In this document: piece after piece, positions 1 to 63,279 of the stretch
How positions within the stretch are numbered: the stretch's first letter is position 1
How the letters are laid out: every line of letters begins with the position of its first letter
Source: Xiphophorus maculatus
Taxonomy: Eukaryota; Chordata; Actinopteri; Cyprinodontiformes; Poeciliidae
Length of the DNA stretch: 64,000 bases
Reading direction: 5' to 3'
Assembly: GCF_002775205.1 (NCBI RefSeq)
Contig: NC_036448.1
Location: 4,056,572 to 4,120,571, forward strand
The notes under the pieces: model-generated
The model's input: the letters and a program-made list of their open reading frames with translations, nothing else
Databases searched by the model: none
What the model was told of the DNA's origin: nothing
Position numbers and translations under genes: made by a program

Positions 1-1062
1 ACCACTGTTTTTTCCAGAGTGAACTGATTATACAGCTTATATCGTCAGGAGATCTGGATAGTTCAGTTTAAATAAAATGTGAATGATGTGATTTTTTTTT
101 CTTTCTAATCCACACTGCATCAAATTTACGACGTTCAAGGAAAAAAAGCAACCGGACTACGGGTTAATATTTGTAATATTAATATAATATTAATATTTGC
201 TTACGCAAATTATATGTGCTACGGACCATGTGGATTAAAGAAAATCCGCGTTACATTCAAACTTGTGCACTTAATTGTTGTTTTTATAAACGCAGTCATT
301 TCAACAGATTGAGATAAAACAATAAAAGCTCTAAATTATTGTGGCATTTATGCGCCTGATGAGTAAGATGTAAACTTTTAATCAGGACAGTAGATCAAGA
401 AAGAGAGAGAGAAAGAGAGAGGGACTAGTCTGATATAATAAAAGTGATCGAGGGGCTAAACAGGAATAAAACTAAAACATTCTAAAATGAATCAATGTTA
501 GTATTCAAATAAAAACTAAATAAATCATAAAAATTACACAGAACAGAAAGTTTTCCTGTGGACATTTTGGTGCTTCCTCTTGTCCTCTCATCTTCATTTC
601 CCATAGTTTGGTTAATAATTTATAAACATACTACATTAAATTAGTTCCAGCTTCGCAATTCACCTACTTTACCTCAAACTTGCTACCAGAGTTTAAAAAA
701 AAAAAAAAAGAAAGAAAAGAAAACTACAAGAAACCACCTTAAAATAAACCCAACATTCTGACTTCATCTTCTAGCTGGAAATGAGAGATGTTAGTGTCTT
801 ACCCAGAACCAGAACCAGAACCAGAACCAGAATCGGCCTGCTGTGTAGTTGCGCCACCTGCAGCATACCCTGTATCGACACCCTGTGACATCGTTGGAGA
901 ACCGTCCAGCCCGCTGGACGCTTTGTCAGAACGGAATACAAAAATCTGCAATTGTATGTGTCAGCATTTTTTTTCCTCTCTCTTTTTTTTTTTTTTTTAA
1001 GAGGGAGATTAGTTACTCCAGAACTCTGCGTGTGCGAGTCTCGAATTTTGTCGGATTGGATG
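1..1062. other. ro60 3' flank, no gene recognised
   Basis: AT-rich sequence with an A-tract near 697-709, the hexamer repeat and a T-tract at 982-999. No exon of a neighbouring gene and no convincing AATAAA on the minus strand were found. ATTAAA near 376-382 (minus) is the only weak poly(A)-signal candidate. Confidence 0.5.
803..832. repeat. (CAGAAC)n hexamer repeat
   Basis: Five near-perfect CAGAAC units lie about 255 bp downstream of the ro60 stop, probably in its 3'UTR or just beyond. Confidence 0.85.
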
Positions 1063-1085
1063 GGGTCGGGTCGGGTCGGGTCAGG
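1063..1085. repeat. (GGGTC)n pentamer abutting the ro60 stop codon
   Basis: Four GGGTC units plus a degenerate one run directly into the ro60 stop (TGA at 1088-1086 on the minus strand). The 3'UTR therefore starts with CCCGA repeats. Confidence 0.8.
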
Positions 1086-4000
1086 TCAGATAAGGTCGAG
1101 GGCGAGGTTCCGGATGACGCTGAACGCTCCGAGGTCAAAGCCGCAGATGCTGAGTAAGCCCCTGTCCTCTGTGTCTGCGATGGCGTGGCCGATGGAGGTC
1201 AGGCCGCACATCACTAGCTTGGAATCTGTGCCCGATGCCTGTAGTTGAGGAGGAAGAGAAGAATGTTTAAAAAACACCCATCATCTCTAGACTTGTGGGG
1301 GGCAAGGAGGGGTGGCCTTTTAAAATGAGCAAAGGCCGCTGTTAGATGGAGTTCTGTGTGTTGTGAAATTAAAGACATAGTTCAGTTGGCTGTGAAGCTC
1401 TGTTTATGCTTCATGCATTAACATTCTGCATGAAATCAGCCTGACAACTTTTGCGGCCCGTATTCTCCTAGACACTAGGGGGCAGTGTAGGGCACCTATG
1501 GTGACAGTAACATGTTTAGAAGAGGTGGGGGGCTAAGTCAAACAACCTTTGACTTAGCAACGTTTTGAAAAAGATGCAGCAAAATAAGTCGCTTTAGGCC
1601 ACAATAATCCCAAAAACACATCGCAACATCCTGGAGGGACAGATTATTCTGTTTACAGTGAATTTACTGTAAATCTAAAACCTGAGACAACATGTTGCTG
1701 ATGCTAGCAGCAATGCATTCAAAAGTACCTTATTTGCACTGAAATGCTTCAGCTGACAGAGTCGGGAAGGGAAGAGCTGCAAGAAGATCAAAGTGTCTCA
1801 CAGAGACAAACCTACATGTCTGTGTTTCTTCAGAGACTCCACTGGGCTGGCTGTAAACGTCCACAGCGGGTTGTTGGTCAGAATGATGAACATGTCCACA
1901 GACTTCCCATTTTCTGTGGCCCATGTGACGGGAAGGGTGCAGTCTGTGCTGCCGCTGGGGAACTGGAAGAGAAAAGTTCAACAGAAACATCTGTTTTCAG
2001 ACTAACTGTAACTCCAACAGGCAACAGTTGTGGGGTAAAAAAAAAAAAAGTCAGGGTGGGAAATTGGCAAGTTTTCAATTCAGACAGGAGAGTGGCGCTC
2101 AGTTACCACAAGTGACCTGCTGAGGGCAGCAAAGCGCCTCGGTTTCCACTAACGTGTTGCAGTGCGAGAGAAATTTCTTTTATTTTTATCCTGCTTTTGC
2201 TTTTTTATTGGTTACATTTAAATGTTTTTGATCAAACAAACTTAAATGTCAGACAAAGATGTCCAGAATTAATACAAAATACAGTTTCAAGATGATGCTT
2301 TAGATGAAGTGATTGTGCCTACGAGCAAATTGTTATATTTAACAAGCAAATATATCAAATAATCAATAAACAACAAAAACAAAAATAAATAATGAACATA
2401 GGATGTACAAAACAACATGATACCAAACAGTGTTTATTTTTTGACTAACAAAATATCCACAACTTATGCAATCGGGACACTGTAGCGGCAGATGGAAAAG
2501 AAAGGGAGAAATGTTTTAAAGGGAAGCAGGAAACAGAAGTAGAAGCCAGAAAGCAGCATAGAGATGAGCAGTGGACACACCAGAGGTCTGCTTCTAACAC
2601 CTGCAGAAAGAGAGAAAACAGCTGTTCATCTTACCTTAACCAGCTCAGCAGTTACTTCTGCAAGCGACATATCTGCAGAAAGAGAGCACGGAACCACAGC
2701 GCCCTCAGAGAAGGACAGAACGTGCGTGTTCGCTTCTGTCCGGGTAAAAATCTGCAGCAAACAGACATAAAAAGCTGAAGAAACCAACCAATCTAACTCT
2801 GCCTCTCTTCAGTACATCTAAACAAAACTCTTTCGTTTGTTTTTGTGATGTCACTTTCCCCGGCTAATAACCTCTTAGGGGGCCCTGTGGACCAACATGG
2901 CGCGGAAAGAATTTGCCAGGAATTCCCAGCATGCGCCAACAGGTCCCAGCCGGCAGACGCAGCTGTTCCTTCTGCTACAGCGTAAAGTCTCCCTCACTCT
3001 GCTCAGGGCTCACCATGGTTATGGCTGCAGCTGCAACCGCCGTGCTGATCGCCGTTCCCGGGACGATGCTGGTCAGCGACGTGCCCACGTCTACGGCCAC
3101 GACGAAGCGCTTCCCGACGGGCTCCACGTTCTGAGCAACGGAAACGAGAGTGGCCATGTTCTTAGTAAGACGCCGATGGCTGAGGAGGAACTCTGAGACC
3201 CAGAAAACTCACCAGAAAGCTTGTGTAAAAGGCCCAGTCCATGGCTTTGAGGATGCTACCGTCCGCCTCCCACTTTGTTTTCCCCTGGAAGCCTTGACCT
3301 CGTTTATAGTTTTCCGAAGCCAAAAGGATGCTGAAAGGGTGGATGTTGGCCTGGAGGGTTGAAAATGGAAACGTTTTCACCTGCAGCACAGAAAATTGGT
3401 GACGCCGTTGGAGGATGTTTACGGCAGTACCTTCTTTAGCGACGACTCGTTCTGAAGTCTCTCGCAGATGGTTTGCGTCTCCGCGCTCCGTGGCTCAAGA
3501 AGTCTGTTGGACGTCATCTTTCCCAGGATTTTAAGAATGGACTGCAGAGATATCTCCTTCAGCAGGGCACTCCACACCTTCAGAAAAAAGAAAAAAGGTT
3601 TACACTTAGCAAATTTCCGGTTTCTTTACTTTAAAGAAACTGGTATTTACCATATCTGTTTAAGCGGTAAATGGCACTTATTTAGGTTTATTTGATATCG
3701 TCACTTTAATAAATAAATGGTTAATGTCATTTTCTTATCAACAGCCCTGACCAGCCACTAGTGAGATAGAAGCCAAGAAATTCGACCTTTCGTCTGGTCA
3801 GTGAACGCACCATATCCAAGCACTAACAGAATTGTCGGCGTGGAAGCCATTTCTGCAAGAACAACACTCAAAGTTGGCCAATTTCAGCATCAGTGTTAGC
3901 TTGAATCCTGGCCGTTTCGGTACTTCACTGTTTCATTCTTTCAAGGTTTTTGGGTTTTCATAAAGTATTTCTGCAAGTTAGGAACCCGATCCAGGAAACC

Positions 4001-6454
4001 TGGTGGTCTTCTGGGGTCATCGTTAAACATCATTTGAAATTTAGATATTTAAACAGTATTGTACAGTGTTAGCTCTCAAATACATTCATAACAGTGATTA
4101 GTCAAGTGATAGTGAACTTCTACTGGGGGCTCAAAGCCATTTTTGGGGTTGCGGATGGGTACAGTTATGACATTTTAAGATGTTTGTGCTTTGAGGTACA
4201 ACTTACGGCCATCACAAATCCCCAGGATTACAGCTCCTTACCCAATATTGAGATTCATGCACTGAAGTTTTTGCTGTATCTCAGGGCTCCACTCCAAAGA
4301 CAAGTGAAAAGGGAAATCCACATCAGCGGATGTGGATTTCCGCCAATGTGGATTTCATTCAGACTCTTCATTCAAACTCTATTCCAGCTTACTAAGCACC
4401 GTATCGGCTATAAGACAGCTTCATTGTTGGAAAACCTGTAGATTGAAAAATCTCTGTTACATCTCCCAACAGAGATGTAACAAATTTCTAAAATGCAGAC
4501 GTGGCCTCACGGATGAAAGTGTCAAAGAAAAGCAGCGTACCTGTTTTGACCTCAGGTGGTCTGTAAGCAGCTGCTCCCTCTCCAGCTTGTGCTCCTCTAT
4601 TAAACCGCTGACCTCCACTTCGTCACAGCTGCGCTTGACCTTTTCCAACACTTCCAGATAGGAGAGCACTTTGGCCACTTCCTCCGATTTCTCTTTGTCC
4701 GCGTAAGCCGCCTGGACCTCCTTCCACCCTTTTGTTACATATTTGCTGATCAAGGCAACAGCTGGAAACACAAAGAGCCGGTCGCCACCGTTTAACGGTC
4801 AAAACGTGGAACGCTGCAAGCGGAGACGTCTGGCGTTTCTCGCTCGTCTCTTATCCTTGTGCAATAATGGAATTTCACTTTAAAAACACGAGAGTTTAAT
4901 GGAAAAAAAGCAGCTCGTTGTTTTCAAGCTCTTAATACTATAATGTGTTTCGTTAATCAATTAAAAACAAAAAACAATTAATCGGCCATGTAAAACAGCT
5001 GATGCAAAAATGGTTCAGATATGCTTCTTTTTTTAAATTTAGCTTATTGTTTGAGTTAAAGAAAAATGGTCGAGCCTCTAGACACAAAAGGAAACTTGTA
5101 TCGATTTATTGATAAAACCAATCAACTTTACATTATCTCCATTGATAACTTGCATCCCTATTTCTAAATGATCCCCTTTGAGAGATGTGCAATATTGCCC
5201 TTAGATGAGCACAGAGAGACACTATGTGGTGATGGAGCACAAGCTCTTTTCATTTGCAATAAAATGCCTTTCTGATTTTTTTTTTTTTACCAGTAGCTGC
5301 GTTTGCATTGCAGATGTGTGCAAATCTGTGTCAATATTCTGCTAATGTAAAATAAATAAATAAATTTAAAAAATAATAATTTTGTAATTGCGTTTTTACA
5401 TTAAGAAGTTAAATTAAAATCACACATAAATAAGCTTGTTCGCTACAATAAGCGATTAATAATCAAGGCACAGACGGAAGAAAGCAGTTACATGAACGTA
5501 TGTATGCTTGTAGTTTCTGCCAGCAGTAACATCTGGATGTTGATCATGTGGTTTGTGTGATGTGAAGTAAAGTGTTTCTCATTGCAAGTTTTGCGAAACT
5601 CGCAAATCTTCATACGGCTGAGAAACCACCTCATCCTAGTGCAAAAAACTTTATCTGTAAAAATGAAAACACGCCAATGTCATGTTTTCGAAATGATTTT
5701 AGTCAATTCAATTTGCACAATTTTATGGTTAATGGAGATGCAGCTGGTGTCATGTGTGACTTGTAATAAGTCTCACATCTCGCAGGCAGAAGCTCCAAAC
5801 GCCACACAGGGTGCCTTTTTCTTTTCTCTTTTTTTTAAATTTGAGCGCCTTCGCTCCCAAAATGTCCGCCCCTCACTCACCCTCTGTGGCCGGTTTGGTG
5901 TGGGAGAGCCTGAGCAGGTCCTGGTGCGACCAGCCCTCTCTCTGTTTACACCTGGTCACCGCCGCAGCCAGATTCAGGGCGTCCTGCTCGTTGTACCAGT
6001 CGGACACGGCCTTCCTCAGGGCGCGCCCCCACATCCCGCATTTCATGCCCTCTTTCAGCTCCTTCTTGTACTGGACGAAGGAGAACAAGTGGGCCGGGTC
6101 CCGGCAGACCTCCCTCAGGGCTTTGAAAGCCGCCTGCCTCGTCTTCAGCTCCGAATGCTGCGAGCACAAGGCCAGGGCGAAGAGGGCCGGTCCCGGACTG
6201 ACGGCACGGCCGCCCTGGGCGAACCGCTTCGCCTCCTCCACCGCCTCTGCGCCTCTCCCCTCCTGCAGGAGCGACAGCAGGGCTCCGGCGGTCTCCGTGG
6301 AGACGCGGCCCTGCTCTCTGGCGGTGTAGATGTCTCCCTCAGAGCCGTAGCAGAGGAAGCGGCACAGTCTGGTCTTGTCGCTGATCTCCCATGAGCCCTC
6401 GGCGCCTGTCGAGTTCAGGGCGTGGTTGCTGGTAGCGTTTTCTGATGGCTCCAT
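1086..6454 (-). CDS. ro60: Ro60 / TROVE2, RNA-binding ring protein (complete, 8 coding exons)
   Basis: Coding exons on the minus strand, 5' to 3': 6454-5881, 4761-4541, 3577-3431, 3350-3213, 3130-3014, 2751-2635, 1962-1816, 1238-1086. Every junction is GT-AG and phase-consistent. They total 1614 nt, or 537 residues, against 538 in human Ro60. The first exon encodes the start of the TROVE (HEAT-repeat ring) domain, with near-identical blocks such as [20 protein letters not shown] and [12 protein letters not shown]. The second carries [10 protein letters not shown] and [13 protein letters not shown]. Exons 5-8 encode the C-terminal von Willebrand A-like domain, ending [19 protein letters not shown]. 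The start ATG at 6454 has G at -3 and +4 and lies 18 nt inside an exon with a good acceptor. In the family, the ring binds ends of misfolded RNAs and Y RNAs in nucleus and cytoplasm. Oddity: MIDAS positions are altered (DVGTS for DxSxS; TNN where human has TDN). Orthology is firm; metal binding is doubtful. Confidence 0.95.
1472..1487 (+). promoter_or_regulatory. CTCF-like motif (plus orientation) in last ro60 intron
   Basis: ACACTAGGGGGCAGTG matches most of the CTCF core consensus. It lies in the last ro60 intron, between coding exons 1238 and 1816. It is a motif match by eye only. Confidence 0.35.
5290..5752. mobile_element. MITE-like repeat, copy 1 (ro60 intron)
   Basis: It begins CAGTAGCTGCGTTTGC and ends AATGGAGATGCAGCTGGTG, inverted versions of each other. 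Interior landmarks (TTCTGCTAATGT, AACCACCTCATCCT.GTGCAAAAA, CAATTTTATGGTTAATGGA) recur at 23.95-24.27 kb and 33.4-33.6 kb. It lies in the intron between the first two ro60 coding exons. Confidence 0.65.

Positions 6455-10152: not shown

Positions 10153-10211
<59 letters not shown>
10153..10211. repeat. (CT)n microsatellite
   Basis: About 29 uninterrupted CT units lie 125-183 bp downstream of the rgs2-like stop codon. They probably appear as (GA)n in that gene's 3'UTR. Confidence 0.95.
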
Positions 10212-10335: not shown

Positions 10336-13193
10336 TCAGTCCTTGCTCACCAGGAGCAGAGGGTTCACTTTGAAATCCTCCACAGGGCTCTTTATTCTCA
10401 CCGCCGTGCGTTTCTTCTGAAGACCTCTCTGTTTCGAAAGGGAGTTAATAAAGAGTTTGTATGGCTCGGTTTCGGTAAAGCGTGGGAAGGAGCAGTTCTC
10501 CATCAGGGTGAAGATTTTCCTCTCTGCCACGGCGAAGCAGGACGACCCCGGCTCTTCCAGACTCTGTCTGATCGTTTCTCTCGTGTAGGAATCCAGATTC
10601 ACCTGCAGAAACAGCACATCGGTTACATAAAGCTACAGAAACTGCAAACGTTGTCTCACTTCACTTTGTGCTTACAGTGCAAGAGTGACCATGCTCCCTT
10701 GACCTTTTACCAAACAGTATTTTATGAGCGTTTAATGTGACAGACCAACACAAAGTTTACAACACAATTTTGTTTGATTCTCATCTCCTTTTAGTGGAGT
10801 TTCTCCCACTGAGTTGAATTTCCCTGGTAGAATTTCAACCGATCAGCTAACAGAAGAATTTCCAATAAGCTTCATAGTGTCGGTCGGATTATTTTAGGCC
10901 CAATCTACATGGTATGAGTACACTTTAAGAGTGACATTTAATTAGGGGATTCTTTATTTAATTTTTTTACTCTTTCAATAAGTAATTACCCCTTTACTTT
11001 AATCCATCTAAATACAATCCAGTGCAATCAATGTCTTCAGAGATCACTAATTAGCATAGTTTAACCTCCCGATGTTCTATGAAGGCCTCAGAGGTTTGTT
11101 AGAGAACATCAGTGATGACGTAAAGGCCCATTACGTTGCCGTTACTAATGTGAAAGTTTAAAGCAGGGTCACGTTCTCTAAACAGTATCCCATGCTCTGT
11201 TCAATCCACCAACTCAGAATGGAATGAGGACAGCGCAACATCAAACCTACTAAGACATGGCCGTCCAACGAAACGGTAAAGCCAGTCAAGGAAAAACATT
11301 AATCAGAGAAGCAGCAACTCTGAAGGAGCTGCAGAGATCCACAGGCTCAGCTTACCAAAAGCAAAGTAGGAGATACATGGAAGAAATAGAAGAAGGTTAA
11401 AAGAAAGCAAAATTGGAAATGAAACCTGTTAAAGGCTGGAAAGTCCCCAAAAGTTGGTTGATATCCAAAGCTGTTTGAGAGCCAATAAGACCAGCGATTT
11501 TAAATCCAGCTAAAGGTGATCCTGCAAAGTACCGACCCACACACCGACATGCCACAGTCCTCGGAATTTTATTTGAAAAAGAAAGAAATCCAAAATTATG
11601 AATCATTTTAGCCACGATTGACCCAGTAAACAATGTTGATCTTTGTTGTACCTTTACCTAACTAAATCTTAAAAGTTTATTGGTATAAGTGCTTTTGTAT
11701 GACGCTGTACATTTGGTTGCATGAGTCCACATCAGATGAACTATCCTCACCTGTTTGGGGGATCCCTCCCTGATGAACTCTTCATAAATACTCGCCGCTA
11801 TCTGCGTCCGCTCCTCCAGACTGTCAAACGACCGATACTCCCTACAGGCGAGCCAGAATTCCAGGTTTTCCTCACAGAACTCCAACTTCAGGAAATCCCG
11901 AAACGCACTTCGCCCGCCTTTTTACAGAAAAGAACAGAGCTGCATTATGAAGACGGCAGTAGCCAACCATGACATTGGTTCTGAACTGCCTGAAAGCAGA
12001 AGGAAATTACTTTTCTGGGAAAGGACCGTCTTCAGAGAGTCTCCCAACGGGTTTGCTTCGTACGTTTCCTGTCTGCAAAGAAGGAGAAAAAGGGGGGTTT
12101 ATTTTGATCGTGTGGCCATTTTACAGAAAAGCAGCATTACGCAATATTAGCAAAAAAAGAAAATAAAGGCAAAACAACAGCAGATCTGCATCAATGGTAA
12201 TCGATTCATGGAAATCTCATTGAAATATCTGCAAATCAGAGTTGTCCAAGGTGACTAATACAAATTACAAAATGTTTACCAAATAATTGAAATCTTGAAA
12301 TAGAACATTTTAGGTACAACGTAATGTAAATTAACCTAACAGTAAAAAAGAGCACAAACATTCAGTGACTTTTTACTCAAAAGCAGACTTGGACACATCT
12401 ATCTTGCACACTTGGTGTTTTTGAATAAAGAGTAACTCATAAGCAGTTCTTACTGCTCGTCTTAAGATTTTTAACCCCAAAGTGTTTATTTGCCATATTT
12501 GTTGTGAGTAAAACAAAAAATGACTGTGGCCCCTTCAGTTTGAAAATTGTTTCCCACATGCCAAAAAAGTTTTGTGTCCTCATGTGGCTCTTTAAAGCTT
12601 TATGGCGAGTGATAAAACTAATGTTTTTAAGTAAAGTTCTGTTTTAAAAATGCATTTTAGTAGTTTTTTTCATGGACTTTGCATTAAAAACAGAATGACA
12701 CAAAAAGTCACAGTTATATGTTTTAGATGTATTTTTCTTGTAAAAGTGGAAACTAAATGCTTTCTTTTTGTTTACATAGTTACAAGAACATGGCATAGAA
12801 GAAAATCTATCTACCGGCGTTCTCGTTCTGCAAAGAAAGGTCTTCAAGTTTGAATTTGTTTTAAAATCTGAAAGTAGAAATAAGATTGTTTCTTTTTCTA
12901 TTTTAGTAAATACTTACTATTTACTAAATTTCAAACAGTAAATCTTGACTACAAATCAGAATTGCCTTTTCTCCAAACCTTATTTTAACATTTGCAGCTG
13001 TAAACAAGTTTTACTTTAGCTGGACTGGGGACAAAAATAACAATGTGAGCTGTCAAGGTTACAGAGCCTAGACTTAAACCACGCAGGAGCACGAACGCAC
13101 AATAATCAGCCTTAAAGAACTCCAGATAAAATGAACTTACATTTTCACTGTGTCCTTCACGGCTGTTTGGAACTTCTTAAGGAATCCATACAT
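10336..13193 (-). CDS. divergent R4-family RGS protein in the rgs2 slot (rgs2-like, complete, 4 exons)
   Basis: Coding exons 13193-13141, 12072-12011, 11917-11751 and 10602-10336 give 549 nt, or 182 residues. The 62-nt and 167-nt exons are the sizes shared by the other RGS genes here, and all phases agree. The RGS box runs from about GDSLKTVLSQKSGRSAF through EFCEENLEFWLACREY to LMENCSFPRF. Three positions that make mammalian RGS2 Gq-selective point to RGS2: Cys in CEEN, Glu after RFT, and a non-Asp residue (Cys) before SFPRF. The gene also sits next to ro60, as RGS2 does. Odd points: the N-terminus before the box is only about 25 residues (starting MYGFLKKFQTAVKDTVK, possibly an amphipathic helix). 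The catalytic Asn of RGS4 (N128) is Ser. The usual Trp in the first helix is missing, and a basic 35-residue tail follows the box. It could instead be a lineage-specific paralogue. Predicted role: GTPase activation of Galpha at the plasma membrane. Confidence 0.82.
10735..10920. repeat. dispersed repeat, copy in rgs2-like intron
   Basis: It shares GATTCTCATCTCC, TTCTCCCACTGAG and AACCGATCAGCTAACAGA with the copy at 8.69-8.95 kb. The preceding GACAGACCAACACAAAGT resembles the end of a common fish DNA-transposon remnant. Confidence 0.5.
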
Positions 13194-27527: not shown

Positions 27528-28479
27528 TTACGTCCTCATTGGCCCTGATGTAGAGTCCAGCAAAGTCCTGTAAATGTCCGACTTTAGGAAGCGTGGGTAT
27601 GAGTCCTTCTCCATTAACCCGTAGACAATCTTCTGGGCCTCTTCGAAACACACTGCAGACGCAACCTTCATGTTGGTCCTGATTACCTCCCTGGTCTTGT
27701 GATCGATGTTGATCTGGAATTTAAAGAAACATAACATAAGTTGCTGAAGCAGTGCTGGCTTTTAAGAAAAGTACTAAAAAGAAAACTTCTTTCATTTAAA
27801 AGAAAAAAACCCTCTATGCGTACCTCTCTGGGAGCTTCGGCTTGGATGTAGAGTTTGAAGATCTTTTTGGCCCTTGAGGACATTCTGAAGGAAGACTTGA
27901 TCTTCTTGAAGTCCTCACACACCACCCAGAACTCCAGGTTTTCATCACTGAACTCCGACTTCAGGAAGGCCTGGAATATTTTCATCCCATCTGCACGGGT
28001 TGGGAAAGCAAGCATCAATTAGTCAACGTTCAAGAGGATGACTAACTGGAGGATTTGCATACCAGATGACTTATTGGCTAACTTACATTTGGAGGACAGA
28101 AGTCTCTCCAGTGACTGTGACCACTGGGACATCTCTTCAAAACAGAGCCTGCAAAAGGAGAGCGTGTTGTTACTAACACGTGAAAGGAGCAATAGTGCAG
28201 ATGTCGAGTTTCATGGTGAGAGATTTCTTGACTTACTCCTCTGTGTTGGCCGGTTGAGATAATTTACTCTGAAGCCGAGACTTTAGGTTTCCTCCCCTGC
28301 TAAACGACAGGAAAAACACAAGACAGCAAAAGTTACTTCACTGAAAAATCAAAGATGATCAGCAGAAATGGAAAGAGAAAGTATTATTTGGAATAAAATA
28401 GTTACCTGTATCCAACAGCTTTCTTGTCGATGTCCATGTTTAGGTGTTGCAGCGGTGTCAATGTGGCTAGACTTGGCAT
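27528..28479 (-). CDS. rgs13: R4-family RGS protein, rgs13-like (complete, 5 exons)
   Basis: Exons 28479-28406, 28296-28237, 28148-28087, 27990-27824 and 27713-27528 total 549 nt, or 182 residues, with consistent phases and GT-AG borders. The box starts EEMSQWSQSLERLLSSKYG and continues with SDENLEFWVVCEDFKKIK, SSRAKKIFKLYIQAEAPRE, INIDHKTRE, CFEEAQKIVY and LMEKDSYPRFLKSDIY. The SRAKK..K.YIQ...PREINID and CFEEAQKIVY strings fit RGS13 best. The N-terminus and MSQWSQSLE also recall RGS1, so this gene may stand for both. Glu-Asn of the GAP loop, the catalytic Asn (TREVIRTN) and Asp (KDSYPRF) are all kept, so GAP activity toward Gi/Gq alpha is expected. The start is taken at the upstream ATG (28479). 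A second in-frame ATG at 28437 has the better Kozak context and would shorten the protein by 14 residues. Confidence 0.9.
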
Positions 28480-29699: not shown

Positions 29700-30440
29700 A
29701 ATGCAAGGTTGCTGAGCACCAGTAGACAAAGTCGGCCTTCTATCACCTGAAGAACATTTCCAGGATTAAAGGACTAATGTCTCAGCAAGATCTAGAGAAA
29801 CTCATCCATGGGTTTATCTTCAGTCGTATTGATTATTGCAACAGCGTCTTCACAGGTCTGTCCAACAAATCAATCAAACAGCTGCAGCTGATCCAGAATG
29901 CTGCTGCTCGCGTTCTCACTAAAACCAGGAAGATAGAGAACATAACACCAGTTTTAAAGTCCCTCCACTGGCTCCCTGTAGCTCAAAGAATAGACTTTAA
30001 AATATTGTTAGTTTACAAATCACTGAACGGCTTAGCACCACAATACATTAAAGATCTGCTGTTGTTGTATGAACCTTCCAGACCTCTCAGGTCTTCCGGT
30101 TCTGATCTGCTCTGCATCCCCAGAACCAGAACCAAACGAGGAGAAGCAGCTTTCAGAATCTATGCACCACAAATTTGGAACAAACTTCCAGAAAACTGTA
30201 AAGCAGCTGAAACACTGACTTCTTTTAAATCTCAACTAAAAACCCACCATGTTTAGGATTGTATTTGAAATGTAATCAATTACAAATTTATTGATGGAAC
30301 TTGACTTAATGCTTTGTTTTGATTATTGATTCTATGTTGCTTTGTGTTTCTGTGTTTGTAATGATGTAAAGCACTTTGAAATGTCTTGCTGCTGAAATGT
30401 GCTATACAAATAAAATTTGATTGATTGATTGATTGATAGA
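29700..30440 (+). mobile_element. L2/CR1-type LINE, 3' fragment with open C-terminal RT frame
   Basis: A continuous frame runs from about 29724 to 30256. It encodes the C-terminal part of a non-LTR reverse-transcriptase protein: SRIDYCNSVFTGL, LQLIQNAAARVLT, LKSLHWLPVAQRIDFK, LLYEPSRPLRSS and APQIWNKLPENC. The 3' end has GCACTTTGAAATGTC, ATACAAATAAAATTTG and a (TGAT)n tail at about 30418-30438, as L2 elements have. The N-terminal endonuclease and RT core are absent, so this is a 5'-truncated insertion. An undisrupted frame of about 170 codons suggests it is fairly young. Confidence 0.88.
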
Positions 30441-45435: not shown

Positions 45436-46659
45436 TCACCTGGAGTTGGCTTTCCTCAGGAGTCCCTGATAGATGTCAGATTTTAGGAAGCGCGGGTAGC
45501 AATCCCTGGCCATCAGGCTGTAGACGAGCTTCTGCGCCGTGTCGAAAGACGTCAGAGTCGGCTGGGAGATGTTCTTTGTGATGTTTTCTCTGGTAGTGCA
45601 GTCGATGTTGATCTGGAATCGAACAATACAACCCAGAGTGTCTTTAGAGCGGCGGGGTTCTGAATGGAAGCGACTCAGTCCGACATGTTTTTGTGTTGTT
45701 ACCTGTCTGGGTGCTTCCGGGTGGACAAACTCAGAGTAGATCCTGTTGGCGGACGAGATCATCTCCGGGACAGTCTTGATTTTTTTGTAGTCCTCGCAGG
45801 CGAGCCAAAACAGGATGTTCTCCTCGCTGTACTCCGACTTCAGGAACTCCCGGAACGCTATCTGTCCGGCTGGAAATCACGGGTCAGGAGACTTGTGTCA
45901 CGTCAAGTCAATTCAATTCTCATTCGTTTCATCAGGGACAGAACATTAAACCATTTTACGTGTTAAAAACAAAGCAATTGTTGTTTTCTGGCCACAGGCT
46001 AATTTGCAAACCCAGTCCTTGGTTGGACCTTTATTAAAAGACAACGAAATTAGAATTAAAGGTTCCTGTCACACACACACACAGACACACATACATAAAA
46101 TTTTTGGAACTTAACAAGAAAAACATAAAAATACATATTAGACAAAGTGAACTCTCCACAACAAAGTAGGTTGGTATCAATCAGCGTTTGCAAATTTGGT
46201 TTTGTTTAAGCCATTGTTTCTACTGGGAATTAAAAACTCTAAGATCTGTTACCATCTTTATTACTGATGATGAACTGTTCCAGATGTACAAACTGATAGA
46301 AAAGATGTTTCCTACCAACAGCCGTTATTATAACTCTTTGAACAATTTGAATTAAGATGAGTTGCAGCAACATTTCATTTCCCTTTGGGATACATATAGT
46401 ATTTTTGAACTGAATTGAATGAGGACCTCTGAATGAGAAGATATCTTGACCATATGATGTTTTGTACTTTGCAGGTTTGCAGTCTCCATTGACTTTGCCT
46501 CTGGTTACCCCTAGTCAACGACTCAAGGAGCAAGATTTGAAGATCCTCACCTTTGCAACCGAGGACTTTATCCACGGATTCGCTCCAAACCTCAACATCG
46601 TCCAGCGGATCCTTGGGAAAGCAACAAAATCTACCCTTGAAAAGAGCATCGAGAGCCAT
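45436..46659 (-). CDS. rgs21: RGS21 orthologue (complete, 3 coding exons)
   Basis: Exons 46659-46551, 45869-45703 and 45612-45436 give 453 nt, or 150 residues; mammalian RGS21 has 152. The first exon reads FCCFPKDPLDDVEVWSE, matching the RGS21 start in its CCF, the Pro four residues on and the 10-residue spacing to WSE. The box follows with KAGQIAFREFLKSEYSEEN, FWLACEDYKKIK, RIYSEFVHPEAPRQ, INIDCTTRENITKNI and LMARDCYPRFLKSDIY. The GAP-loop Glu-Asn, catalytic Asn and Asp are all present. An in-frame stop lies upstream of the ATG, whose context (G at -3 and +4) is good. The usual 62-nt exon is not separate: the N-terminal codons read straight into it, so an intron found in the neighbouring RGS genes is missing or has moved. 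RGS21 is a minimal RGS box linked in mammals to taste cells. Some features (FVHPEA, Gln before INID) also recall RGS1. Confidence 0.9.
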
Positions 46660-47389
46660 GACTAGCCAAGTTATCTGCGACCACTACGTGTAAACATCTA
46701 CAACATCCGGATAAATCCTGCTGAACAATTTTCACAACGTGAGGCTAACTAATGCCCCAAAGTAAAAAATGAGACTTACAGTGAGTGAAAAACTCCTTGG
46801 TGTTTTCCACATGGCTGCTGTGTGAAGTTCCCTGCTGAAATGTGCTAAAGGCCCAATAATGATACATACAGAAACTCACTTTATTGCCATCTCCTTCGTC
46901 TTCTGCTACGGGCGACGGAGACGAGGTCCTGCCAGGTTGAGGTCGGGGCTGTGACCGTTCGCAAATGATTGGAGTCGAGTGACTGAGCAAATCTAAATCT
47001 CAACCTACTCCGTCGACGAACCCCACCCAGTGTAGATGGAATATATGGAAATGGGCATGCAAAGTGTTGTTGTTGGGAGAACCAGGGCATCCTACCACAA
47101 CTTGAGGAAGAGAGAGCTCAGCCGTGATTTAGGCTGACCTCACCTGTTGGGCCACAGCGGTGGTTATGGCTAATACACACATGTGGTTGTGTTAATAAGA
47201 AATAACTGCATGACTCGACTGGTTAATTCCAGCATGTAGGGTCAGGATGGGGTCAAGAAAAGTTCTTTAAGGCAAGCACTCAGCCAGATTTCAGTCTTGA
47301 GGGTTGGTATTCCTGCGGTGGAGCTCAAGATTTTTGAGCTTAAAAACCAAGCCTACTTAAAACAACAAGCAAGCGATCAGGAAGCGCCG
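46660..47389. other. immediate upstream region of rgs21
   Basis: The presumed promoter of rgs21 lies just right of 46659. No TATA box is evident, and in-frame stops precede the ATG. No repeat was identified. Confidence 0.35.
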
Positions 47390-61310: not shown

Positions 61311-63279
61311 TTACCAAGCCGAGGGCTCGGTTTTGGCTTCCCCGCGCTCGTTAAACACGCAGGAGCGTGACCTTCTGCGGAACATGGTGGCTCCGGGGCC
61401 CTTCCTCCGAGTGATGCGCATGTAAATGTCAGAGTGCAGGAACCTTGGGTAGGAGTCCTTTTTCATCAGGCTGAAGACTTTCGTCTGGGCTGCGTCGAAG
61501 CAGCCCCGCATTGGGTGCTCCATGTTTTTCTGGATGGCCATCTTTGTGTTGTAGTCGATGTTGACCTGAGTTAAAGCAAAGGCAAATATCAAGTATGACC
61601 AGTTAGAACAGGAGACGCGGCTTGTAGGTGGTGCATTAAACACAAATATCCAACACGATTTTAGCTTTGCTGGTCAAGATTTAGAGTAGCCTGCAAAACA
61701 AATCGAGTGCCCTCGAACTTACCAGGTTTTGTCACATTATAACCTCAAGCTTCCTATTTTATGGGCTAGGCCAACAAAAAGTAATGCATATTTGAGAGGT
61801 TTCACAATAAAATTTGTCAAAGCGGGCATATATCTGTATCCAACCAATCAGATTTTTACTGTAATTACAGCTGCGGGTCTTTTGGACTCACTACCAGCCT
61901 TCCATGCCTAGAGTCTGAAATTTGTTCACATTTTTTTGCTAACTGGCTTAAACTCAGTGAGTGAAGATCTGTTTTCTGGTTCCGCCGCAGATTCTCAGAC
62001 TTGATTCAGAACCGGGACGTTTGATTCGGCCATTCCTAACGGTGGGGTTGGTGCGTTTCATTGCAGGTGTGAAGTCTTTGCTTAAAGGCCAGACAGACCC
62101 ATTCAGGTCCGAACTGACCAGTGAAGATTGCTTCATGTGTTCGCTGCGTCTCCTACTCAGATTGGTGCAAACCGCAAACTTCTTATGGCTTCCTTACTCC
62201 CACCGTACCACAGAGACCATATTACATATATTATATTTTTTAAATGAAAAATCTGCAGTGTACCAACGATTATCGCCAGATTAGTGAATTACTGAAAGAA
62301 TCATTAGCTGCAGCCCTACTATTAATTATTATTGAGGAGAAAGTTATTTCTGTGACTCACAATTTGGAATATGCCAACAGATAAAGGGCTGAGAAAGGTT
62401 CCCCAAAGACAGACGGGGAAAGTCCCACATTTGCTCGAGGAAGCGCGTTAGTACATTTTTATGACTTTAGAAATGCCCTTTGTGAAATGCGCTCGCCATA
62501 TCTTGCATTATTATCCTACACGCTGGTGTAGAACTTTATCTCTTCTGCAAACAGAACAGTCCACAACAGGAACTACAATGGTCACAAGCTGCCATGCTAA
62601 AAAAGAAGAAGAAGAAGCAAAAAAAAAAAGCCTTTCACCCTCGTAAATGTGCTTTTGTTCTAGACTGAAAGTGTGTGGGAGATGCTCTCTTTAGCTTTGC
62701 ACAGACAGTTCAAAACCTCAAACCAGACTCCTCAGCAAGCCTGAACTGCTGCAGGCTTTGAACGGCGCATCAGATGGTGGTCGCATCATCAAGCGCAAAT
62801 TGTCTGGAAGCCGCAACCGTCTCACACTCAGAAATAACTCAACCCGCTTTTTGCAGCATGCATGCACATGACCTCAGCAAACTGCTGCACCTAATGATTG
62901 TTCACAAAGGTCAGCTCGCCACAGGCTCATAACTATGGAGTGTGTTAGTCCTCGCCCACGGTTATTTTTCTGACGGTGACATCAATATTTCATCTCAAAC
63001 AGTCCTCAGTGACAGATAAGCTAAGAAAACGCTAAATGTCACTGGAGCATTCAGAGCTCTGCGCCATTAAATCTGTGCAGTTCTAGAGAACATAAAGATG
63101 CCACCACCGTACCTCTTTAGGAGCCTCCGATTCAATATAAACAGTATAAATATATTTGGCTTTGGACAGCAGCTTGGTTTCTGAATCGATGGTCTTGTAT
63201 TCTTCGCAGGCCAACCAGAACTCGATGTTTTCCTCGCTGAACTCTGTCCGGAGGAACTGAGAGAAGGTTTCCACCCCAT
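61311..63279 (-). CDS. rgs18: RGS18, 3' part (last two coding exons; 5' end outside window)
   Basis: Exons 63279-63113 (167 nt) and 61565-61311 (255 nt, stop TAA) are in phase. The first encodes GVETFSQFLRTEFSEENIEF, FWLACEEYKTIDSETKLL and IESEAPKE. The second encodes VNIDYNTKMAIQKNM, GCFDAAQTKVFSLMKKD, YPRFLHSDIY and a basic tail with RRRSRSCVFNE ending in Trp. That RRRSRS....NE...W tail after the box is the RGS18 signature, and the gene is the outermost member of the cluster, as in mammals. Catalytic Glu-Asn, Asn (AIQKN) and Asp (KDSYPRF) are conserved, so it should act as a Gi/Gq GAP. In mammals it is restricted to platelets and blood cells. The 62-nt and earlier exons are not found before position 64000. 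Confidence 0.93.
61720..62290. mobile_element. DNA-transposon remnant in rgs18 intron
   Basis: CCAGGTTTTGTCACATTATA, TTTACTGTAATTACAGCTGC, AAATTTGTTCACATTTTTTT and AAGTCTTTGCTTAAAGGCCA recall the dispersed remnant family also seen at 9.2-9.5 kb. No reading frame survives. Confidence 0.45.
62291..63112. other. remainder of rgs18 last intron
   Basis: No further exon or repeat recognised. Confidence 0.3.

Follow-up and report, generated by a model that had tools for sequence, protein, structure and literature searches.

The window, the whole 64,000-nt stretch analysed here (positions 4056572-4120571 of contig C6), carries ro60, a gene that we label W1, and copies of rgs13, rgs21 and rgs18 (Table 1). 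W1 runs from its start ATG at 13193 to its stop at 10336 on the minus strand, limits that agree exactly with the original prediction. Its four exons of 53, 62, 167 and 267 nt hold 182 codons followed by TGA, and GT/AG borders are present at all three introns. The protein has a single RGS domain at residues 30-143 (Pfam score 112.6 bits, cut-off 23.9). The stop is followed, about 580 bases on, by an AATAAA or ATTAAA signal. W1 is a real, intact gene. An extra internal exon in intron 1 was considered and rejected; the best 15 of the 42 phase-keeping open stretches in this intron all score at most 4 of 7 donor points. MEF2-like sites number 19 in the window against 8.5 expected, a count reached in none of 100 shuffles. 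They were rejected as a promoter feature of W1, because they are strewn from 2 to 58 kb and are nothing special to its promoter. A long CT dinucleotide run (window ~10153-10211) lies immediately downstream of W1.

Table 1. Features of the window, in window coordinates
Feature	Position	Strand	Description
ro60 (TROVE2)	1089..6391	-	tblastn with human RO60; TROVE family match at window 5876-6205
W1 exon 4	10336..10602	-	RGS box second half (VNLD retains RGS4 N128; LMENCSFPRFTE)
W1 exon 4 end			tail of ~40 residues after the RGS box, stop TGA
W1 exon 3	11751..11917	-	RGS box first half, contains FCEEN
W1 exon 2	12011..12072	-	helix-1 segment QETYEANPLGDSLKTVLSQK without the usual Trp (W59 column)
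W1 exon 2 splice sites			acceptor TTTGCAG, donor GTAATT
W1 exon 1	13141..13193	-	MYGFLKKFQTAVKDTVK + 2 nt of the following codon; amphipathic short N-terminus; donor AT/GTAAGT
rgs13 copy (W2)	27558..28160	-	box and helix-1 exons only; limits approximate
rgs21 (W3)	45457..46700	-	box and helix-1 exons only; upstream limit approximate
rgs18 (W4)	61419..63277	-	box exons; helix-1 exon outside the window, in L034

The neighbourhood of W1 was compared with the rest of the searched genome (704 Mb, 101 contigs). The order on C6 is cdc73, ro60, W1, rgs13, rgs21 and rgs18, with cdc73 lying west of ro60 and outside the window (L032, L033; C-terminal domain at C6:4.031-4.034 Mb). The conventional rgs2 sought elsewhere in the genome is present on contig C9 (L009, at 7.503 Mb), where it adjoins uchl5 (7.492-7.497 Mb) in the order uchl5, rgs2, rgs13, rgs1 and an rgs pseudogene. 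Genome searches place all five TROVE matches on C6 in two clusters, one of which (24.12 Mb) belongs to another gene, and all three CDC73_C matches are on C6 as well. Peptidase_C12 has no match on C6 and nine on C9, C7, C20 and C5, the C9 place being uchl5. The two clusters have rgs2-rgs13 in common; rgs1 comes next on C9 only, and then rgs21 on C6 or the pseudogene on C9. Both orders agree with the human order, RGS2-UCHL5-RO60-CDC73 and RGS2-RGS13-RGS1-RGS21-RGS18, and W1, like RGS2 in this order, sits beside rgs13 and the uchl5/ro60 block. The shared cluster order, together with the human order, points to one ancestral block that was duplicated and then thinned on each side. The flanking genes suggest reciprocal loss after duplication, with uchl5 found on C9 (L029 1571-6648) and ro60 and cdc73 on C6 (L032, L033, window 1-6400). 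At the rgs21 place of the C9 cluster, an RGS exon (L012 3328-3486, C9:7.549 Mb) has an in-frame stop inside the box and is probably an rgs21 pseudogene. What looks like a degraded retroelement coding end lies at window ~29700-30250, with 91-97% similarity to part of L036 on C9.

The N-terminus of W1 is short, as predicted: 29 residues precede the box by Pfam, close to the ~25 first estimated, versus 72 before the same point in the C9 rgs2. W1 has four coding exons and the C9 copy five, with the 17-codon exon of W1 replacing the first two of the C9 copy; the exon phases at the box are the same in both. The W1 ATG is preceded, five codons upstream, by an in-frame stop, and no upstream ATG exon (14-200 nt, GTRAG donor, fitting phase) was found within 3 kb. 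The acceptor of a candidate upstream first exon spliced at CAG/TTCAACCATG looks poor. The first 18 residues of W1 are amphipathic, with a hydrophobic moment of 0.51 that is matched by 1.2% of shuffles. The same measure gives 0.43 (2.6%) for the RGS4 start, 0.36 (26%) for the human RGS2 helix and 0.21 (74%) for a C9 rgs2 stretch, and since it misses RGS2-type helices, the amphipathic pattern of W1 is a hint only. RGS4, RGS5 and RGS16 have a similar short amphipathic helix pattern at the protein start, but W1 lacks the Cys-2 of the RGS4 N-terminus and is unrelated to it in sequence. PMC12554172 gives residues 5-16 as the FBXO44 degron of RGS2, with Cys13 essential. The W1 N-terminus has nothing of this type, and the C9 rgs2 has DC at the comparable place.

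Residues were numbered by alignment to rat RGS4 (PDB chain 1agr_E, the query being aligned at chain position 52 of 205) and compared across 27 aligned rows, W1 and 26 others. In RGS4, N128 is the Asn in the motif K-E-V-N-L-D, and W1 keeps it in its own K-Q-V-N-L-D; the claim that W1 has lost this catalytic Asn does not stand. The Ser of TRETIRQS, which had been assigned to N128, lies at RGS4 N140, 12 residues further along. Asn is present in the N140 column in 16 of the 26 other rows and absent from 10; human RGS18 carries Ser there too, as do three other fish rows, and the C9 rgs2 carries Cys. W1 has the RGS box in common with the RZ family (RGS17/19/20), and Ser does occur in all three RZ rows at the true N128, as had been stated, but it is not the residue of W1. 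Masuho et al. (PMC7572916) place RGS4 Asn128 in loop 6, in direct contact with Galpha, and describe RGS18 as acting equally on Gi/o and Gq. Because RGS18 regulates Gi/o and Gq with Ser at N140, Ser at this position is compatible with GAP activity. The critical RGS4 contacts named in the review PMC8252600 are N128 with the switch II Gln and both N88 and D163 with the switch I Thr. The N88, N128 and D163 columns hold Asn, Asn and Cys in W1 and three Asn in human RGS2, so that W1 keeps two of the three contacts and human RGS2 likewise lacks the Asp of the third. L159 and R167 (RGS4 numbering) are also retained in W1.

We take C106, N184 and E191 of RGS2 to be the residues of interest for selectivity. 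W1 was read correctly at all three: the C106 column (CEEN) holds Cys, the E191 column holds Glu, and N184, which corresponds to RGS4 D163, is replaced by Cys. Helix 1 indeed lacks its Trp, having Leu at RGS4 W59. Only three of the 27 rows carry Cys at 106: W1 and the C9 rgs2, alone of the 18 fish rows, and human RGS2. At position 184 the C9 rgs2 has Asn. At position 191, Glu is present in W1 and in a C13 gene and His in the C9 rgs2; Glu alone is therefore no definition of a fish rgs2. W1 thus shares the RGS box, Cys106 and Asn183 with the C9 rgs2 and human RGS2, but differs from RGS2 in its Cys for N184 and in having neither W59 nor the long N-terminus. RGS2 chain 2v4z_B aligns with Ser, Asp and Lys at the C106, N184 and E191 places, as would be expected of an engineered RGS4-like version of RGS2. 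A literature search on these three residues returned nothing pertinent. Strict Gq selectivity of RGS2 itself is disputed: the introduction of PMC12554172 terms RGS2 uniquely Gq-selective, and Masuho et al. (2020, PMC7572916) report Gi/o activity in cells comparable to that on Gq.

The tree was built on 27 rows, 18 fish and 9 mammalian (two of the mammalian rows provisional, RGS13 among them), with the RZ family as outgroup. Helix-1 segments are absent for rows L013 and L022, and the row labelled RZ_C23_L023 is actually on contig C22. The pseudogene L012, the RZ-type L019, and L024, L028, L001-L007, L018 and L027 were omitted; L008 and L020 are one gene, included as L020, and five partial PF00615 places (C10, C15, C16, C22, C23) are outside the alignment. 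W1 groups inside R4, in a clade with the C9 rgs2 and human RGS2 (support 98/94), within which W1 pairs with the C9 rgs2 (98/26). The clade also persists (96/92) once the two provisional rows and the other two long ones are dropped, which leaves 23 rows (the reduced set). W2 and L010 group with RGS13 (97/96), L011 with RGS1 (71/78), W3 with RGS21 (83/73) and W4 with RGS18 (90/84). Removal of five columns (RGS2 106, 149, 183, 184 and 191; the N128 column and four diagnostic ones) makes the RGS2 clade disappear, and AU gives p values of 0.151 for it and 0.278 for a grouping with RGS3, neither of which is rejected. The placement of W1 with RGS2 in the full R4 phylogeny leans on a small number of diagnostic residues. 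The whole-genome search with W1 exon 3 has the C9 rgs2 as its best other match (4.2e-12). When the C9 rgs2 box serves as query in turn, W1 exon 3 (1.0e-12) ranks ninth among 44 places, after several other rgs genes, a rank that would fit a fast-evolving gene and also a non-rgs2 gene. The sequence evidence by itself favours RGS2 without settling the identity, and gene order is the firmer support.

W1 could instead be another R4 gene (RGS3-, RGS18- or RGS1-like) occupying the rgs2 slot, with Cys106, Asn183 and Glu191 acquired by convergence, and besides the loss of the RGS2 clade from the trimmed alignment, several observations favour this. In plain identity, W1 is nearest to an RGS3-like gene on C8 (46.9%), with the C9 rgs2 fourth (43.8%) and human RGS2 at 40.9% over the aligned segment. 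The same C8 gene is the best other match of exon 4 in the genome (6.0e-9, versus 1.1e-6 for the C9 rgs2). At a rejection threshold of 0.05, uncorrected for multiple testing, AU retains W1 with RGS3 (0.055), RGS18 (0.065) and the C5 gene L022 (0.138) in the full set, and with RGS3 (0.067), RGS18 (0.086) and RGS1 (0.058; 0.0575 for W1, L011 and human RGS1) in the reduced set. At the same uncorrected threshold it rejects W1 with L026 (0.0121) in the full set and with the rgs13 pair (0.018) in the reduced set. The C9 rgs1-like L011 was a candidate partner of W1, with a shared RE-I--SLE-P motif and an apparently common change of the helix-1 Trp, and was likewise rejected (p-AU 0.0235). Private residues also argue against an R4 gene of another kind: Cys at RGS4 85 and Asn at 162 are found only in W1, the C9 rgs2 and human RGS2 (3 of 27 rows), and two further residues are private to W1 and the C9 rgs2, against one shared privately with RGS3 and none with RGS18 or RGS1. 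As W1 also adjoins ro60 and rgs13, we consider such an origin improbable. The helix-1 exon of L011 (C9:7.527 Mb) is itself odd, with a Trp that can be aligned at the usual place only via a six-residue insertion.

W1 diverges faster than the C9 rgs2. With human RGS2 as the outgroup, the relative-rate count is 29 for W1 against 9 for the C9 rgs2 (chi-square 10.5), and the chi-square exceeds 3.84 with three of the five outgroups (RGS2, RGS18 and RGS1), RGS8 (3.6) and RGS3 (2.3) being below. Such divergence might reflect decay, W1 being either a pseudogene at a late stage or a protein with little or no binding to Galpha. Its branch is the longest of the tree (3.66), and of the 12 columns that are invariant among the filled rows other than W1 (from 123 filled in at least 24 of the 27 rows), W1 alters four (W59L, E96R, Q153E and S171T), changes that could weaken folding or function. 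In a leave-one-out count, every other row breaks at most three, the row with three being the provisional RGS13. Against decay, W1 has a full open frame across its four exons with GT/AG introns and keeps N88, N128 and R167, and true decay is exemplified by the pseudogene of the C9 cluster with its stop inside the box. YN00 over 97 codons of W1 and the C9 rgs2 gives dN 0.50 and dS 1.42, a dN/dS of ~0.35 that is only a rough sign of constraint, since dS is saturated and NG86 yielded no dS value. The two copies differ at 37, 31 and 54 first, second and third codon positions, the third being the most affected. We give decay about as little credence as a convergent R4 gene. A reading in which the catalytic Asn is lost and GAP strength is shifted by Ser, as in RZ proteins, has practically no chance of being right: the Ser does occur in TRETIRQS, but 1agr_E numbering puts it at N140 and Asn at N128.

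W1 is best explained, with a probability of roughly 0.78, as a second, fast-evolving copy of rgs2, a gene that restrains G-protein signalling, and is most likely the teleost genome-duplication partner of the conventional C9 copy and most likely still a working RGS protein. The predicted fast-evolving RGS2 relative is upheld by the gene order, the full tree and the rate count, and is weakened where the tree leans on few residues. With the key catalytic residue present, W1 looks like an ordinary fast-evolving duplicate. Its RGS box would bind GTP-loaded Galpha, with N88 and N128 fixing the transition-state conformation of switches I and II, so that GTP hydrolysis accelerates. Cys106 and Glu191 would keep an RGS2-like, Gi-disfavouring interface, and the contact with switch I is probably weaker, as in RGS2, because the D163/N184 position is now Cys. 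Shrunk to one short amphipathic helix, the N-terminus may hold the protein at membranes, and the lack of an RGS2-type FBXO44 degron may bear on its stability. An altered Galpha preference is possible, and the changes that could bear on it or on GAP strength are the Cys at D163/N184 and the missing W59 and E96. A more specialised rgs2, degron-free, held at membranes by a new short helix, and with the Cys at D163/N184 altering Galpha preference or redox sensitivity relative to the C9 copy, is conceivable on these residues but on the unlikely side. Among the literature matches listed, none is about fish rgs2 copies, as judged from title and start of abstract.

The numbering correction matters for the ordinary-duplicate reading of W1, which would otherwise pass for a catalytic oddity. 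Because the C9 rgs2 has His at the E191 position, the two rgs2 copies do not retain the same set of RGS2 selectivity residues. The pair is a natural, ready test of which of these residues matter for Gq preference, with the C9 copy keeping C106 and N184 and the C6 copy keeping C106 and E191 in one genome.
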